Shown: positions 22,743 through 30,416 of the stretch, piece after piece
How the letters are laid out: every line of letters starts with the position of its first letter
Position numbering within the stretch: the stretch's first letter is position 1
Assembly (NCBI RefSeq): GCF_002266855.1
Contig: NZ_NGJN01000006.1
Location: 186,001-250,000 of the forward strand
Direction: 5' to 3'
DNA length: 64,000 nt
From: Winogradskyella aurantia
Lineage (GTDB): Bacteria; Bacteroidota; Bacteroidia; Flavobacteriales; Flavobacteriaceae
Translations under genes and position numbers: made by a program
The notes under the pieces: model-generated
Told to the model about the DNA's origin: nothing
Databases searched by the model: none
The model's input: only the letters and a program-made list of their open reading frames with translations

Positions 22743-25082
22743 ATGCGTCACACTTTCCTTATAATTGCTTTAACCTTCAGTATTTGTCTACTAAACGCTC
22801 AAAAAAGCACTTTTAATATCGGATTTTTACTAGACAATACTAATTCTGAAATAGACTCTTTATTAAACCATTTGGAGGATGAAATTACGGCAGTTGTAGG
22901 TGAGGATGCCGTGGTAAGCTTTTCGAAAACTAATCGGTTGGTTAATAATTTTGATAAAGCCATCGCCACGAAAAATTACGAACAGTATCTAGAAGGAGAT
23001 ATTGACATCATTATTGCCTTTGGGATTGTAAACAATGCAACGCTTTATAAACGACAGAATTATCCAAAGCCTACCATAGTATTCGGATTATTAAGTACTG
23101 AATTACTTCAGGAAATTGAATTGAAAGAAGATATTGAAAATTACATTTCAATAGTAACTACCCAATCTTACCGGGAAGATTTAGAATATCTGATTGAGTT
23201 GGCTAAACCAAAACGGATTGGCGTTGTACTTGAAGCCGGTTATTTAACAAGTTCGCCTGTTGAATCCATCTTTGATAAAATAGGAACTGATTTACAATTT
23301 GAACCAAAATTTATTCCCTTTGAAAAATTCGAAGATATTACTGCAAATCTAGATGATATTGATGCCCTTTATCTTGCCGGGGGTTATTATTTGGAAAGTG
23401 ATGAAATAAGAGAATTGGCAGAGCTTTTAATTGAAAAAAAGATACCTTCATTTACGGCCAATCCAATAAATGATGTTGAGAATGGTATTTTGGCTACAAA
23501 CCATGACAAGGCCTCGCTAGAACAATTCTTTAGACGTATAGCGCTCGCTGTGGAGACAATAGTTAATGGTAACACCATGGAAGGTTTAGGTGTGAGGTTA
23601 GAAACCAATAAAGCACTAACTATCAATTATAACACCGCCGACCGCATAGGCTTGCCTTTAAAGTATAGCTTAATAGCAACAACTGATTTTATTGGTGACC
23701 CAAAGAAAAAGGTCGCTGATAAGACTTATAATTTGGTCGCTGTTATGCAAGAGGCAATAATTGAAAATTTACAACTAGAAACCTTTAGACAAGATATTGA
23801 ACTTACAGATAAAGATGTTCAATTGAGTAAAAGTGAATATTTGCCCGATGTGTCTGCTAATGCTGCTGGTAATTATACCGACCCTGCTATAGCTGAGTTA
23901 GGGTTTGGTCAAACACCAGAAGTTCAGACCATTGGTAATGTGGGTTTAAATCAGTTGGTATTTTCGAATGCGGCTAATGCAAATATTACCATACAGAGAG
24001 CTTTAAGGGATGCTCAACAAGAGAATTATAATAGCGAAGAATTAAATACTGTTTTCAGTGCTGCCCAAGCTTACTTTACCGCTTTAATTTTAAAGGCAAA
24101 CCTCAGCATTCAGAACCAAAACCTTGGATTAACCAAGTATAATTTAAAAATAGCCGAAGAAAATTACGAAGCAGGTCAAGCAGGTAAGTCTGATGTGTTG
24201 AGGTTTAGGTCAGAAATGGCCCAGAATACTCAACAAATGGTGGAGGCTGTAAACCAACTGGAGCAGGCTTTTTACAATCTAAATTTTATTTTGAATAATC
24301 CGATAGAATCTAAAATTGATGTTGAGGAAGCTGAACTTTTAGAAGGTGTTTTTGAAAACTACAATTATAAACAGTTAGGTACATTTTTAGATGACCCTAC
24401 ATTAAGACTGCCATTTGTTAAGTTTTTGGTACAAGAGGCGATGAACAATGCACCTGAGCTAAAGGTATTAGATTATAATTTAGAAGCCACCAAGCGATCA
24501 GAACGCTTATTTGGTGCTGGACGATTTTTGCCAACTGTTGCATTGCAAGGACAGTATAATTATGAATTTAGTCGATCTGGAGTTGGTTCAACATTCCTAG
24601 GTGGAAGAACTAGGCCAAAAGATTTCTACACCTTTGGCCTCAATGTTACATTGCCTATTTTCAACCAAAACAAACAGAACATCAATCAACAGATTGCAGA
24701 GATTCAAACAAAGCAACTCAACGTTAGCAAGGACAATTTGAAATTAAATATTGAAAAAAATATTAATGATGCCGTACTCAATATCATTAACCAAATATCC
24801 AATATCCAACTTTCAAAAGTATTTGAAGAAACCGCAAAAGAAGCTTTAGAATTAACGCAAACGTCTTATGCCAGTGGAGCTGTAAATATTGTGCAGCTTT
24901 TAGACGCTCAGAATAATTACTTGCAAGCGCAGTTGGCTAGCGCAAATGCAACCTACAATTATTTACTAACCTCGTTACAATTAGAACGATTTTTAGGTAC
25001 ATTTTTTCTATTACAAACAGAGGGAGAACGCGACGATTTTAGAAAGCGTTTTTTAGAGTTTACGCAATCAAATAACGACTAA
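22743..25082 (+). CDS. Fusion of ABC-type substrate-binding domain with TolC-family outer-membrane efflux protein
   Basis: 779 residues, far longer than a usual 430-490-residue TolC. A signal peptide (ends LLNAQ) is followed at about residues 22-320 by a type-1 periplasmic-binding fold resembling the ABC_sub_bind/TrpX group: IGFLLD at the start, PTIVFGLLS, PKRIGVVLEAG, DIDALYLAGG, and a closing segment (LGVRLETNKALTINYNTADRIGLPL) that matches the end of that family. From about 330 the protein is a TolC repeat pair, with coiled-coil and barrel segments (NYEAGQAGKSDVLRFR; SYASGAVNIVQLLDAQNNYLQAQLA). It opens an RND operon and sits 10 bp before the adaptor gene. The binding domain would lie in the periplasm at the TolC equator. 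Ligand unknown. Confidence 0.87.
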   Translation: MRHTFLIIALTFSICLLNAQKSTFNIGFLLDNTNSEIDSLLNHLEDEITAVVGEDAVVSFSKTNRLVNNFDKAIATKNYEQYLEGDIDIIIAFGIVNNATLYKRQNYPKPTIVFGLLSTELLQEIELKEDIENYISIVTTQSYREDLEYLIELAKPKRIGVVLEAGYLTSSPVESIFDKIGTDLQFEPKFIPFEKFEDITANLDDIDALYLAGGYYLESDEIRELAELLIEKKIPSFTANPINDVENGILATNHDKASLEQFFRRIALAVETIVNGNTMEGLGVRLETNKALTINYNTADRIGLPLKYSLIATTDFIGDPKKKVADKTYNLVAVMQEAIIENLQLETFRQDIELTDKDVQLSKSEYLPDVSANAAGNYTDPAIAELGFGQTPEVQTIGNVGLNQLVFSNAANANITIQRALRDAQQENYNSEELNTVFSAAQAYFTALILKANLSIQNQNLGLTKYNLKIAEENYEAGQAGKSDVLRFRSEMAQNTQQMVEAVNQLEQAFYNLNFILNNPIESKIDVEEAELLEGVFENYNYKQLGTFLDDPTLRLPFVKFLVQEAMNNAPELKVLDYNLEATKRSERLFGAGRFLPTVALQGQYNYEFSRSGVGSTFLGGRTRPKDFYTFGLNVTLPIFNQNKQNINQQIAEIQTKQLNVSKDNLKLNIEKNINDAVLNIINQISNIQLSKVFEETAKEALELTQTSYASGAVNIVQLLDAQNNYLQAQLASANATYNYLLTSLQLERFLGTFFLLQTEGERDDFRKRFLEFTQSNND

Positions 25083-25092
25083 TCATATAACT

Positions 25093-26175
25093 ATGAACAT
25101 ACAACAATACCTGACCTTAAGTTGCCTTCTTATTCTAATGGTGTCTTGTAAAGATAAAGAAGCACCTCAAGAAAAACTTGTTAGACCCGTAAAATATGAG
25201 AAGGTCACTTATTTAGGAGGCGACAAAAGCAGGGTTTTTAGTGGTACAGCTAAAACCGAAAAAATCATAAATCTTAGCTTTAGGAGTAGTGGTATCATTA
25301 CCATGCTAGATATGAAGTTGGGCCAGAAAGTAAAGAAAGGTCAGCTTCTGGGAAAATTAGATAATGTGTCTGCACGGCTAAATTACGAGTCGGCCATTGA
25401 GCAGAAAAATAGTTCTGAATCTCAAATGAATACGGCAAAGCTCAATTTAAATCGGGTAAGAAAGCTCTATGAAAAAGGAAGTGCTTCCTTAAGCGATTAC
25501 GAAGATGCCAAGAACTCATATCGAACGGCTGTTGCCAGTTTTGAATCAGCAAAGCGAAGTGTAGCCATTCAACAAGACCAAATTCAATTTGGCTATCTCT
25601 ATGCACCAGAGGATGGTGCTATTGCTTCGGTGATTGCAGAGATTGATGAAAATGTATCACCGGGACAGCAAATAGCGGTCTTAAATGCAGGGTCTGCAAT
25701 AGAGATAAGCTTAGGGATTCCGGAATCTGTAATAAATGCGGTTAAAAAGGATATGATAGTTATGGTAGATTTTACAGCCATACCTAATGAAAAGTTTGAA
25801 GCCGTTGTTACAGAGGTTGCTCCTGCATTGGATGTAAATACATCCACATATCCTGTAACCGTTCAAATTAAAGATTCAGACGAACGCATAAAAAGCGGAA
25901 TGGCCTCAAATGTATTTTTTGAATTTAAGGAAGATTCTGTCACCGAGAGGGTTATAGTGGTTCCGGCTAGTGCTGTTGGTGAAAACTCAGAGGGTAGATT
26001 TGTATTTTTAGTTGAAGATGAGGGAGACAAAACAATGGTTAAAAAGCACACCATTGAAATCGGGGAATTAACACCTCAGGGATTTGAGGTGAAAAAAGGA
26101 CTCAAAAAAGGACAAAAAGTAGCTACGGCTGGCTTACAGACTTTACTTGACGGGCAAGAGGTAAAATTAAAATAA
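25093..26175 (+). CDS. RND efflux periplasmic adaptor lipoprotein
   Basis: 360 residues. Lipobox MVSC (Cys 19) anchors it to the membrane. The MFP order is clear: first barrel/lipoyl half (FRSSGIITMLDMKLGQKVKKGQLLGKLDN), a helical hairpin (about residues 95-160), second lipoyl half (QFGYLYAPEDGAIASVIAEIDENVSPGQQI), beta-barrel domain, and membrane-proximal domain ending LQTLLDGQEVKLK. It bridges the RND pump and the TolC-type protein encoded on either side. The next gene starts 5 bp downstream. Confidence 0.93.
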   Translation: MNIQQYLTLSCLLILMVSCKDKEAPQEKLVRPVKYEKVTYLGGDKSRVFSGTAKTEKIINLSFRSSGIITMLDMKLGQKVKKGQLLGKLDNVSARLNYESAIEQKNSSESQMNTAKLNLNRVRKLYEKGSASLSDYEDAKNSYRTAVASFESAKRSVAIQQDQIQFGYLYAPEDGAIASVIAEIDENVSPGQQIAVLNAGSAIEISLGIPESVINAVKKDMIVMVDFTAIPNEKFEAVVTEVAPALDVNTSTYPVTVQIKDSDERIKSGMASNVFFEFKEDSVTERVIVVPASAVGENSEGRFVFLVEDEGDKTMVKKHTIEIGELTPQGFEVKKGLKKGQKVATAGLQTLLDGQEVKLK

Positions 26176-26180
26176 GGTAA

Positions 26181-29100
26181 ATGAATTTAGCAGAGTTTTC
26201 AATAAATAGAAATCGTATTACATTTACTGTACTTGCCACTATAATCTTAATGGGCTTAGTGATGTATCAGTCTCTTTCAAGGGATAGTATGCCACCATAT
26301 ACGGTAAGGGTAGCCACTATTGTATCTTCATTTCCAGGGTCGAGCCCCGAGCGGGTTGAACAACTGGTAACGGACAAAGTAGAAAAGGTTACTCAAGAAT
26401 TACCAGAGCTAAAGGAAGTAACAAGTACCTCTCGGTCAGGTTTGTCAGTAGTTACGGTTGAGCTAAAAGACGAAGTTAAGCCTGAAGATTTACAGGCGGT
26501 TTGGGACCGTTTAAGGCGAAAGCTAGAAAAAATACAAGGACTTCCGGAAGGTGTAAAACCCGATTTAGATGACGATGGTATTGGAGAGGTTTTTGGCATT
26601 GCAGTGGGCTTAATAACAGATGGGTTTTCATATGCTGAAGCTAAAGATTATGTCGATGATATTAAAGATGACCTTATAAAACTTGATTTAGCTGCTAAGG
26701 TTGAACTGGGAGGTGTTCAAGATGAACGTGTTTTTGTAGAGTTCGATAATTCTAGATTAAAGGAATATGGTCTATCCTCTTCAAAGCTTCAAAGCATTAT
26801 TGGATCTACGAATATTCTGAGTTCTGGAGGTCAAGTAAATCTTGGGAACGAACGCATTATATTAGAACCTACAGGAAACTTCAATTCAGTAAAAGAAATT
26901 GAGCGTATGCTCGTACCTGTTGGCGATGGCAGCCAATTGGTTTATCTAGGAGATATAACCACCGTGGTTAAAGGCTATATAGACCCGCCTAGCCAGGTAG
27001 TGACAGTAAATGGACAAAAAGCGATTTCACTTCATATTAGCCTAAAAACGGGCGCAAATATTATTCAATTGGGAGAGGATATAGATTCCGTACTAAATGA
27101 ATGGAGAGAGCGCTTACCCGTAGGATTGGAGTTAAAACGCCTATCCTCTTTAGATTCCTATATTGATAATAAGATTAGTGACTTTATTGTCAATCTTATT
27201 CAATCTATAGTTATAGTATTAGTGGTGATGCTTATTTTTCTTGGTATAAGAACAGGAGGTATTATTGCAAGCCTCATTCCTATGGTAACGATTATGACAC
27301 TAATGCTCATGGGTGTTCTAGATATGGGATTAAATCAGGTTACGCTTGCTGCTTTAATTATGGCTCTTGGTATGATGGTAGATAATGCTATCGTTGTGGC
27401 TGAAACCATTATGGTAAAAATGGAAAATGGCATTGAAGCAAAAAAAGCTGCAGTAGATGCCTGTGGCGAATTGTTTACGCCATTATTAATATCAACATTA
27501 ACCACGTCTGCTGCATTTTTGGCATTTTATTTAGCAGAATCTACAATGGGAGATATTGTAGGGCCAATTTTTGTGGTAATCTCCTTGGCACTCTTGTCTT
27601 CCTGGATTTTAGCCCTAACGGTTATAACCTTACTTTGTTTTCTTTTCCTTAAGATTACACCCAAAGGGGATAAAAAACCAAGTTTTATAGACAGGATAAT
27701 TGAAAAGTTAAAAGGCTATTACAAAGATCTCATTTTACTGGCATTATCATATAAGCGTCTTGTATTGATAGGAATATTGGCTTGTTTTATACTTTCCTTA
27801 TACGGTTTTGGTTTTATTCCTTTTATTTTTTTTCCGGACAGTGATAGAAATATGGTAACTGTAGATATTAATTTACCGCAAGGGACGCGGATTGAGGCTA
27901 CCCAAAGGTTGATTGCGGATATGGAAGATTATATCGTTAGTGATCTTTTGGTTAATGAAAATAGACCTAATGGAATAAAAGACTGGTCCTCTTACATTGG
28001 AGCAGGTCCTGAATCTTATGACCTCGGATATACACCAGATGAACCTGATGCCAGTTATGCACATATGCTGATAAATACATCCGACTTTGTTTACAATAAT
28101 GATATTGTGGAGAGGCTAGATGAATTTAGTTTTAATAGTTTTCCTAATGCAGATATTAAGGTTGGACTCCTAGGTTCAGGTGGTGGTGGAACGCCTATTG
28201 AAATTAAAGTTTCTGGTAAAAATCCAGACCAGTTAGCAATTTTATCAGAATCAGTTAAGCAGAAGTTAACATCAATTTCTGGGACTAAAAATGTTAAGGA
28301 TGATTGGGGTCCAAAAACTAAGAAGTTTGTAGTTAGGATAGATCAAAATAAAGCGCAATTAGCTGGGATTTCGAGTGCCGATATAGCAACATCCTTGCAA
28401 ACAGTTCTCGATGGTTTTAAAACTGGTGAATATAGGGAAGATGATAAGTCAATTCCTATTATGATGCGAGGAAATGAAAGCCAGCAACAAACTTTGGCGT
28501 CCATAGAAACGTTGAATATCTATGCGCAAAATTCTGGTAAAAGTGTGCCCTTGCTGCAAGTTGCTAGCATAGAACCGCAATGGCAGTATGCTAAAATCAA
28601 ACGATTAGATATTGATCGCACTATTGTAATTAGTAGTGAGTTAAATACAGACGGAAACGCCTCTGCTATTATGAAAGAAGTTACTCCTTGGATTGAAGAG
28701 GTTTCAAAAACATGGCCAGAAGGGTATACCTATAAATTTGGTGGTGACGCCGAAAATACCGCAGAGAATATGGGAGCCGTTTTGGGCTATTTGCCTTTGT
28801 CTGGCTTTATAATCATATTGTTATTGATTATTCAGTTTAATTCGGTCAGAAAAACAATTATGGTTGCCTCAACCATTCCATTGGGAATTATAGGCGTAGT
28901 TATTGGTTTATTGATTTTTCAACAACCCTTCGGATTTATGCCGTTTTTAGGTGTGATTTCATTGGCAGGTATAGTAATTAATAATGCCATTGTTTTAATC
29001 GACAGAATTCAAATTGAAGAAACTGAAATTAACAGACCTATACAAGATGCTATTATTGCTGCCTGTCTTCAGCGATTCAGACCTATTTTGTTAGCCACAT

Positions 29101-29297
29101 TTACAACGGTTCTCGGTCTTATCCCATTATATTTAAGCGGTGGTGATATGTGGGAAGGTATGGCCGTAAGTATTATGATTGGATTATTGTTTGGTACTGT
29201 AATCACGCTACTTTTCATTCCTTCATTTTATAGTGTACTGTTTAAGGTCTCTTATAAGGATTACACATTTAACGAGTCAATTTTAAAGGAAACCTAA
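26181..29297 (+). CDS. RND efflux permease (AcrB/HAE1-like)
   Basis: 1038 residues, the usual RND length, with twelve predicted transmembrane helices in two sets of six and two large periplasmic loops. TM4 reads ALGMMVDNAIVVAETIM: the first proton-relay Asp of AcrB is present but the second is Asn, as in the NolG/SwrC-like branch. A Gly-rich loop (LLGSGGGGTPIEIKV) sits in the second porter domain. Substrate class (drug, lipid, metabolite) cannot be told; the heavy-metal CusA motifs are absent. It is the pump of the three-part efflux system encoded with the genes upstream. Confidence 0.93.
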   Translation: MNLAEFSINRNRITFTVLATIILMGLVMYQSLSRDSMPPYTVRVATIVSSFPGSSPERVEQLVTDKVEKVTQELPELKEVTSTSRSGLSVVTVELKDEVKPEDLQAVWDRLRRKLEKIQGLPEGVKPDLDDDGIGEVFGIAVGLITDGFSYAEAKDYVDDIKDDLIKLDLAAKVELGGVQDERVFVEFDNSRLKEYGLSSSKLQSIIGSTNILSSGGQVNLGNERIILEPTGNFNSVKEIERMLVPVGDGSQLVYLGDITTVVKGYIDPPSQVVTVNGQKAISLHISLKTGANIIQLGEDIDSVLNEWRERLPVGLELKRLSSLDSYIDNKISDFIVNLIQSIVIVLVVMLIFLGIRTGGIIASLIPMVTIMTLMLMGVLDMGLNQVTLAALIMALGMMVDNAIVVAETIMVKMENGIEAKKAAVDACGELFTPLLISTLTTSAAFLAFYLAESTMGDIVGPIFVVISLALLSSWILALTVITLLCFLFLKITPKGDKKPSFIDRIIEKLKGYYKDLILLALSYKRLVLIGILACFILSLYGFGFIPFIFFPDSDRNMVTVDINLPQGTRIEATQRLIADMEDYIVSDLLVNENRPNGIKDWSSYIGAGPESYDLGYTPDEPDASYAHMLINTSDFVYNNDIVERLDEFSFNSFPNADIKVGLLGSGGGGTPIEIKVSGKNPDQLAILSESVKQKLTSISGTKNVKDDWGPKTKKFVVRIDQNKAQLAGISSADIATSLQTVLDGFKTGEYREDDKSIPIMMRGNESQQQTLASIETLNIYAQNSGKSVPLLQVASIEPQWQYAKIKRLDIDRTIVISSELNTDGNASAIMKEVTPWIEEVSKTWPEGYTYKFGGDAENTAENMGAVLGYLPLSGFIIILLLIIQFNSVRKTIMVASTIPLGIIGVVIGLLIFQQPFGFMPFLGVISLAGIVINNAIVLIDRIQIEETEINRPIQDAIIAACLQRFRPILLATFTTVLGLIPLYLSGGDMWEGMAVSIMIGLLFGTVITLLFIPSFYSVLFKVSYKDYTFNESILKET

Positions 29298-29300
29298 TTC

Positions 29301-29966
29301 TTGATTACCAAGCTCTATCCATATCGATTCGAGATGTTTCTTATAACACTATTCGCTATTTTATTTGGCTCATTATTTGTGCCAAATATCTGGTTTGAGA
29401 ATTGGGTTTCTCCAATTTTGCTAATTTCTAACTTAGCAATAGGAGTTGTTTTAGTATCCAAGAAGAGATTTTTGTACATAGTTTTGTTAGTGTTATTAAT
29501 TCTAACTTTTTTAATACAAGTTAGGGATGCTTTTACAGAAACCCTTAACACATCCTTAAGCCTCCTTAAATTAGCGTGTTACTTTTTGTTTTATGCTATA
29601 GTCTCGCTTGAAATCATCAAACAGGTAGCTAAAGCAAAGAGTATAAAGAGCAATGTAATCTTGGGTTTGATTAGTGGTTACATTTCCCTAGGGTTACTGG
29701 CTTTTTTCATGTTTCTCACCATTGAAATAATTGAGCCAAATTCGTTTTCTGGATTAGTGTTGGAGGTAGATGCAAATTTGAATCTTAAAGAACAGCTACT
29801 TTATTTTAGCTACGTAACTTTATTAACTATTGGTTACGGTGAAATTGTACCAGTTTCAGAATTGGCTCAGAAAGGAGCTATATTAGTGGCATTAATTGGG
29901 CAATTTTATTTAGTCATCCTTACTGCTATCGTGGTAGGAAAATATATTAATCAACAATCAGAATAA
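29301..29966 (+). CDS. Ion channel of the two-TM potassium channel family
   Basis: 221 residues from a TTG start 3 bp after the RND stop; an ATG at 29334 would give 210 residues. The last third holds the pore: a P-loop with filter TIGYGE (TxGYG signature) between two helices, and there are about four hydrophobic helices before it. There is no RCK/TrkA-N regulatory domain. The intergenic distance implies co-transcription with the efflux genes. K+ selectivity is inferred from the GYG filter. Confidence 0.82.
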   Translation: MITKLYPYRFEMFLITLFAILFGSLFVPNIWFENWVSPILLISNLAIGVVLVSKKRFLYIVLLVLLILTFLIQVRDAFTETLNTSLSLLKLACYFLFYAIVSLEIIKQVAKAKSIKSNVILGLISGYISLGLLAFFMFLTIEIIEPNSFSGLVLEVDANLNLKEQLLYFSYVTLLTIGYGEIVPVSELAQKGAILVALIGQFYLVILTAIVVGKYINQQSE

Positions 29967-29987: not shown

Positions 29988-30416
29988 ATGAGAACTTCAC
30001 AACTAGTATTAACGATTATTTGTTTTTGTATAACCGCATTGAGTTTAGCTCAAAAATCTCAGAAACAAATTAATTTAGAAAAGAATCGGGTTCAAATTTT
30101 TAATGATGAAGAGCGCGCTAATGTTCAATATCATTTTTATGAGAAAACCCAAGATTTAAAATTGAGTGATAAGGTTGAAGCAGAATATTATAGGATTATT
30201 GTTTATTATGTTTATGATATGGCTCGATTAGATGACAAAGATCAAGATAATACCGATGGGGAGATTAGAACCAAAATGAAAGCTCTTGTCAAGAAAATGG
30301 ATAAGGAGGTAAAACCGATTTTAAGCCCTGAGCAGTATAAAATGCACCAACAAAACTTTAGGGATGTACTTCAAAGTGCATACAGAGCCCGTAATTGGGA
30401 GTGGGATATGGATTAA
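29988..30416 (+). CDS. Small secreted protein of unknown function
   Basis: 142 residues with a signal peptide (MRTSQLVLTIICFCITALSLAQ). The mature part is charged and helical, with YRIIVYYVYDMARLDDKD in the middle and LSPEQYKMHQQNFRDVLQSAY near the end. That last part resembles the 'LTPEQ' pattern of periplasmic Spy/LTXXQ-like proteins, but the match is too short to assign. It begins 21 bp after the channel gene and is probably the last gene of the RND operon. Confidence 0.7.
   Translation: MRTSQLVLTIICFCITALSLAQKSQKQINLEKNRVQIFNDEERANVQYHFYEKTQDLKLSDKVEAEYYRIIVYYVYDMARLDDKDQDNTDGEIRTKMKALVKKMDKEVKPILSPEQYKMHQQNFRDVLQSAYRARNWEWDMD

Follow-up and report, generated by a model that had tools for sequence, protein, structure and literature searches.

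Why should the outer-membrane channel of an efflux pump carry, ahead of its first repeat, a periplasmic-binding domain of a kind otherwise used for nutrient import? The question is raised by one gene within a 64,000-nucleotide stretch of the genome of the marine flavobacterium Winogradskyella aurantia (hereafter the window; contig NZ_NGJN01000006.1, positions 186,001 to 250,000), and it is approached here through the gene itself, the predicted fold of its product, its neighbours and its relatives.

A single gene joins a binding domain to a TolC channel

The gene occupies 22743-25082 on the plus strand as one intact frame from ATG to stop, 779 aa long with 0 internal stops, and is separated by 114 bases from a divergent peptidase gene upstream. 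Its product begins with a putative signal peptide, continues with a periplasmic-binding domain of about 300 residues of the ABC_sub_bind/TrpX kind and ends in a complete TolC. Because C15 is preceded by I, no lipobox could be recognised by eye. Genes for an adaptor, an RND permease and an ion channel lie downstream in the same orientation, the successive gaps being 10, 5 and 3 bases. The features of the locus are:

22743..22802, plus strand: putative signal peptide, residues 1-20 of the fusion protein, without lipobox (sequence by eye)
22803..23696, plus strand: ABC_sub_bind / TrpX-type periplasmic-binding domain, about residues 21-318 (PF04392 in relatives, profile, fold, hhalign)
23697..23720, plus strand: short junction to TolC (alignment of 41 fused proteins)
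23721..25082, plus strand: TolC/outer membrane factor domain and stop (PF02321, TolC structure alignment)
25093..26175, plus strand: RND periplasmic adaptor (MFP), conserved beside the fusion (TIGR01730, 1.6e-67)
26181..29297, plus strand: RND permease (PF00873, 7.6e-164)
29301..29966, plus strand: ion-channel gene, listed with a TTG start and conserved in some of the loci (PF07885, 1e-9)

The fusion of binding domain and TolC is real and conserved, and we regard both the identity of the domains and the architecture as near certain. An initial annotation, made from the DNA alone, had described a 779-residue frame with one signal peptide in which the binding domain precedes TolC. The frame proved to be intact, the signal peptide is apparent by eye, and the domain order is borne out both in the window and in the sampled genomes, being present in 20/120 genomes of the family and 18/395 of the phylum. 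A frameshift or assembly error, the danger to which that annotation had itself pointed, was considered as the source of the fusion and rejected, given the intact frame and the recurrence of the same order in many separate genomes.

The N-terminal domain is kin to TrpX-type binding proteins

When searched alone, residues 21-325 matched no Pfam family, and no sequence in the PDB matched them below E 0.34. Among 32 related N-domains, seven matched PF04392 at E<=10, a threshold looser than the curated cut-off, the best of them at 2.7e-10. In one relative (L115) a single chain scored above the curated thresholds for PF04392 and PF02321 alike, the PF04392 score of another (L111) fell below the curated cut-off, and a Pfam search with a third (L043) returned no PF04392 match. 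A 19-row profile of fused domains run against the PDB retrieved 3LKV (5.8e-13), 6HNI (2.2e-8) and 3LFT (5.7e-8), with the next match at 0.44, and hhalign, comparing the fused domains with 16 plain ones from the phylum, gave a probability of 98.8 (E 9.4e-17). It is through the relatives, the profile-to-PDB search and hhalign, and not by the window sequence alone, that the domain falls within the PF04392 sequence profile. The TrpX-type match of the initial annotation thus holds as to identity, on the evidence of relatives, profile and fold, while the match itself is undetectable from the window sequence taken alone.

An AF2 model of residues 21-325, built from 13 sequences, reached a pLDDT of 83.9. 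With this model, all of the Foldseek ranks 1-5 were occupied by VC_1101, CD0873 and SP1069 (structures 3LKV, 6HNI and 3LFT among them), and VIA-align placed 3LKV at the top (Z 23.3, rmsd 3.6, 284 aligned), together with 6HNI (Z 22.8, rmsd 4.1, 282 aligned), 3LFT_B (Z 22.2, rmsd 3.7, 275 aligned) and, at rank 4, 6HNJ (Z 19.3, rmsd 6.6, 283 aligned). The rank after this TrpX-type set was taken by 6K1X, a single-lobe protein of Rhodothermus (Z 17.4, rmsd 2.5, 146 residues). As modelled, the domain would be two-lobed, with a type I binding-protein fold nearest that of 3LKV, 6HNI and 3LFT.

By profile and fold searches, then, the nearest kin of the N-terminal domain are the TrpX-type proteins VC_1101, CD0873 and SP1069. 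With TrpX, CD0873 and VC_1101 it has in common the predicted two-lobed build and a C-terminal stretch N..TA..IG; unlike them, it is fused to TolC, has mostly lost the signature residues and belongs to a genome without a PF02653 permease. Aromatic amino acids (Tyr, Phe, Trp) are bound by CD0873, VC_1101 and SP1069 (PMC6816091), and the studied PF04392-type proteins CD0873 and TrpX are parts of importers (PMC6816091, PMC9382623).

The channel half and its junction

The TolC half matches PF02321 at E 6.7e-55 in two stretches, with OEP repeats at 23745-24296 and 24426-24998, and several PDB TolC chains align with it from residue 330 of the fusion protein against chain residue 2. It is thus an outer membrane factor of full length with two OEP repeats, just as the initial annotation had read it, and when Pfam is searched by halves, as had been suggested there, PF02321 is returned for the TolC half and no family for the N-terminal half alone. 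The complete repeat pair, which spans about 450 residues and can be aligned with TolC starting at chain residue 2, is a likeness to TolC and OprM, from which the fusion protein differs in the 300-residue folded domain that precedes the channel. In the same genome the five other frames with the two OEP repeats but lacking an RND part measure 439-525 aa. Elsewhere in this genome (L116:3547-7866, minus strand, G000:C1) we observed a 1439-aa chain in which an RND permease (PF00873, 7.4e-274) is followed by a TolC repeat pair (PF02321, 5.8e-21).

The two halves are joined at a nearly fixed distance. The spacing from T298 to P368 is 71 residues in 32/41, 70 in 8/41 and 68 in 1/41 fused proteins, so that the junction length is constant within one residue in 40 of the 41, unlike the length of the N-domain itself, which varies from 294 to 313 residues. 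The junction is thus almost free of indels; from a floppy tether more variation might be anticipated.

As to where the N-domains would sit, the lipid-anchored N-terminal end of OprM arises from the equatorial domain (review PMC8277102), and YbjP, an extra periplasmic protein, is bound in three copies at the equatorial domain of TolC, in a 3:3 ratio (PMC13095208). Because the join lies where mature TolC begins, and in view of these two precedents, three N-domains likely form a ring around the TolC equator by analogy. The position at the channel equator proposed in the initial annotation is thereby made likely, from the site of the join and the OprM review (PMC8277102). The full-length AF2 monomer model, with a pLDDT of 54.8, is too poor to place the N-domain. 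The arrangement proposed from this analogy would be like that of TolC and YbjP in having an extra periplasmic part at the TolC equator, and unlike it in being fused to the channel, YbjP being a lipoprotein in its own right that belongs to the DUF3828 group (PMC13082787).

A tripartite RND operon

The nearest solved relatives of the RND permease are MexK (9XWG, 7.9e-168) and 6VEJ (1.9e-147), the latter of which we take to be TriC. Channel, adaptor and permease lie in one operon and thus make up a tripartite RND pump, and the claim that the fusion gene heads an RND operon, with adaptor and RND permease directly downstream, was correct. In its RND permease the operon is like MexJK of Pseudomonas (and TriABC). 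MexJK pairs with OprM or OpmH and has been linked to quorum-sensing signals (PMC9323910); here, unlike in MexJK, the channel heads the operon and bears a binding domain.

Adaptor and RND genes adjoin the fusion in 27 of the 28 whole-fusion loci with flanks (L022-L033, L048-L057 and L110-L115), the sole case without either being L053 (G296), within its 18 kb. Two further loci, L034 and L035, have both adaptor and RND, but there the contig ends within the fusion gene. At E<=1e-60 the adaptor is found in exactly the same 20 of the 120 family genomes as the fusion, in 21 copies of which the weakest scores 3.1e-100; 20 of these lie on the same contig, about 2.3 kb from N-domain start to start, and 1 on another contig. 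The ion-channel gene was found in 14 of 24 loci examined, and BLAST found none in 8 of the 10 loci L048-L057. In the window this gene (29301-29966, plus strand), right behind the RND gene, shows by eye a TIGYGE pore motif, and at 29988-30416 (plus strand) there is a secreted-looking protein of 142 aa, which matches nothing in Pfam or NCBIfam and a relative of which follows the operon in L022, L023 and L030. A defence library gave no match for the three proteins searched.

A PF02653 permease, presumably the cognate kind for TrpX-type binding proteins, was matched nowhere in the genome, the same search having found PF02653 in 12/14 known genomes that served as control; nor did the PF04392 Pfam model match in the genome. 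As the genome is without a PF02653 permease, the domain cannot serve an importer of the PF02653 kind. An importer's substrate-binding protein would be expected beside its cognate PF02653 permease, and the neighbours here are an adaptor and an RND permease. The remark in the initial annotation that no ABC permease is nearby is therefore borne out, for the PF02653 kind that was searched, across the whole genome.

Distribution and selection

The N-domain is present in 20 of 120 sampled family genomes at 21 loci, all in open frames of 778-829 aa save one of 413 aa that is cut by a contig end. A named collection yielded 12 near-complete relatives, 7 of them in Winogradskyella and 2 in Psychroserpens. 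Among 247 phylum genomes there were 12 matches, of which 10 are fused to TolC and 2 are plain tandem proteins, and a wider profile run on 395 phylum genomes, the samples overlapping, matched 23: 17 intact fusions, one fusion in two contig-end pieces (G507) and 5 proteins without TolC. The fusions in 18 of the 395 span 11 family codes. With the window N-domain as the sole query at E<=1e-3, a search in which distant members could escape, the plasmid collection gave no match.

Related domains also occur in other settings. Half-length, single-lobe ABC_sub_bind-like genes (L079:1210-1962 and L080:1354-1965, both plus strand) stand directly before genes that by eye resemble chemotaxis receptors, and in L077 and L082 an ABC_sub_bind-type domain fronts proteins that look by eye like sensor histidine kinases with PAS regions. 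Frames of 945-1271 aa in L061, L059 and L067 encode single chains with a membrane portion, permease-like by eye, that is followed by a tandem of two or three ABC_sub_bind domains.

Across 28 loci, tree distances of the N-domain correlate with those of the TolC half at 0.967, of the adaptor at 0.933 and of the RND permease at 0.856, these being plain correlations of related rows. The dN/dS ratio between the window and L022, where dS is saturated, is 0.066 for the N-domain and 0.016 for TolC, and between L026 and L033 it is 0.049 and 0.023, respectively. Purifying selection is strong on both halves of the fusion, and by both tree distances and dN/dS the N-domain evolves faster than the channel half. 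In quick trees of 60 and 52 domains, one branch parts fused from plain members with an SH-aLRT of 100 in both; nine near-copies are left out of the trees, and L076 and the tandem plain domains also from the second. As the trees are unrooted, the fused set may, but need not, have a single origin.

The ligand cleft has diverged

In TrpX of S. suis the residues with counterparts in studied proteins are A127, T108, T129, D152 and N233 (PMC9382623). We mapped T108, D152 and N233 onto the alignment by motif and spacing and left out A127 and T129, the mapping of which is ambiguous. The fused set comprised 41 rows, from which L004, L034 and L035 (contig-end cuts) and second loci of the same genomes are excluded and in which L002 and L032, which look like near-copies, are both counted. 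The position of T108 holds T in 16/16 plain vs 5/41 fused rows, that of D152 is acidic in 14/16 plain (13 E, 1 D) vs 5/41 fused rows (all E), and that of N233 holds N in 15/16 plain vs 0/41 fused rows, the D before it, which completes the D-N motif, being present in 16/16 and 0/41, respectively. By T108, D152 and N233, therefore, the fused rows do not class with TrpX-kind binders of aromatic amino acids.

The cleft side of the binding-protein fold is as a general rule formed by the C-terminal ends of strands, and cleft-side loops were accordingly assigned at those strand ends from DSSP of the AF2 model. In the fused set these loops are the least conserved with 5-residue windows (0.417 vs 0.496 for the rest, P 0.0036), and with 3-residue windows they score 0.442 vs 0.487 (P 0.116). 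In plain members the cleft-side loops score highest with 5-residue windows (0.631 vs 0.587), and with 3-residue windows the loops of the other side lie above them (0.639 vs 0.602). Within 15 Winogradskyella-like rows, conservation of the cleft loops is no lower than elsewhere (P 0.26). Among 31 Flavobacteriaceae-type rows, a subset that leaves out L020 of the same family code, the cleft-side residues are D31 in 29, G94 in 31, N98 in 29, S/N118 in 31, D/E120 in 31, S142 in 31, Y/F143 in 31 and E/D164 in 30. Elsewhere in the N-domain, conservation peculiar to fused proteins was seen at R264 (41/41), R265 (37/41) and L268 (40/41), and also at E47.

The low conservation of cleft loops in the fused set fits ligand loss as well as ligand change. 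From these alignments, the N-domain probably does not belong with the known binders of aromatic amino acids, and would either have been re-specialised by lineage or have ceased to bind. The initial annotation had envisaged that the domain might capture a ligand or gate the pump. With the residues for a TrpX-type amino-acid ligand mostly lost, ligand capture cannot be inferred from the family name, and the domain might bind either a different ligand or none.

Discussion

We propose, with a probability of about 0.45, that the N-terminal domain is a pump-dedicated TrpX-type module at the mature N-terminus of TolC, re-specialised to another ligand and modulating the channel or its export. The fusion protein would provide a dedicated tripartite RND pump of the MexK-like kind with its outer-membrane channel and would bear the two-lobed TrpX-type (PF04392) domain where mature TolC begins; in the trimer, three such domains would be disposed around the equatorial belt of the channel, beside the adaptor. 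Taken out of uptake service, the N-domain may have had its cleft turned from aromatic amino acids to another ligand, either an exported compound or a cue, and the opening and closing of its lobes might alter the engagement of channel and adaptor or favour the export of that ligand. Dedication to one pump is proposed on the grounds that adaptor and RND are present in 27/28 loci and the adaptor in the same 20/120 genomes. The absence of adaptor and pump from the 18 kb of L053 counts against it. For the proposal as a whole speak the cleft-side residues kept in the 31 Flavobacteriaceae-type rows, the purifying selection on the N-domain, the correlated tree distances, the nearly constant junction length and the genome without a PF02653 permease; against it count the loss of most TrpX signature residues, the poor conservation of cleft loops across the fused set with 5-residue windows and the faster change of the N-domain relative to the channel half.

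A close rival, which we likewise hold tentatively, is that a binding fold free of ligand acts as a docking collar, an equatorial structural module that would hold the adaptor in place, set the spacing of the channel in the envelope or tie channel and pump exclusively to each other. The loss of most signature ligand residues, the poor conservation of cleft loops across the family in 5-residue windows, a junction almost free of indels, the partnership with one adaptor and pump, the fused-only conservation of R264, R265, L268 and E47 away from the cleft, and the precedent of YbjP as an extra protein at the TolC equator (PMC13095208) are all consistent with such a collar; it is harder to reconcile with the near-invariance of cleft-side residues in the 31 Flavobacteriaceae-type rows and with the 15 Winogradskyella-like rows, in which the cleft loops are no less conserved (P 0.26).

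Collection of a substrate in the periplasm by the domain, with delivery to the pump or channel, appears improbable, even though capture proteins share its fold and family and the pump is an efflux-type RND. RND pumps are loaded from the side of the inner membrane, a long way from the channel equator, any contact between domain and RND is hypothetical, and the known ligand residues are mostly lost. Still less probable is a sensor acting in trans, with the domain signalling the presence of a ligand in the periplasm to some further component, for instance a regulator or the ion channel encoded next to the pump: elsewhere in the phylum PF04392 domains do stand, by eye, in kinase-like proteins (L077, L082) or beside chemotaxis-receptor-like genes (L079, L080), and the ion-channel gene does follow in 14/24 loci, but BLAST did not find it in 8/10 of the loci L048-L057. 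Finally, that an uptake protein of an ABC importer was joined to TolC by accident or assembly error is hardly credible, despite the importer role of the studied PF04392-type proteins (PMC6816091, PMC9382623), in the face of the same order in many separate genomes, a genome without a PF02653 permease, and purifying selection.

In the literature searched (titles and abstract starts, among the matches listed, with most subscription journals and preprints outside its scope) no description of a fusion between a binding protein and TolC was found, and in 300,000 of the 747,799 characters of the review PMC8277102 the terms 'periplasmic binding' and 'substrate-binding protein' are absent. PMC7565204 contains both Pfam numbers, PF04392 and PF02321. 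Since L115 passes both Pfam cut-offs, the architecture of PF04392 followed by PF02321 may already be displayed in domain databases.

To return to the preferred reading of a re-specialised, pump-dedicated module, the presence of a domain otherwise used for nutrient import at the exit channel of a pump suggests that the channel may sense or sort passing cargo. The usual view of TolC-type channels is of exit ducts that the adaptor opens. That this one is a ligand-responsive efflux channel, with three hinged domains which are attached at the equator by a join of fixed length and respond to a ligand in the periplasm by gating or selecting the exports of the MexK-like pump, is possible if somewhat doubtful; if true, an exit duct normally taken as passive would itself be regulated by a small molecule. 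The fusion, with one adaptor-RND pair and spread over 11 family codes, makes ligand sensing by an outer membrane factor directly testable, and it would represent importer parts reused in export, with a defined set of proteins for ligand finding.
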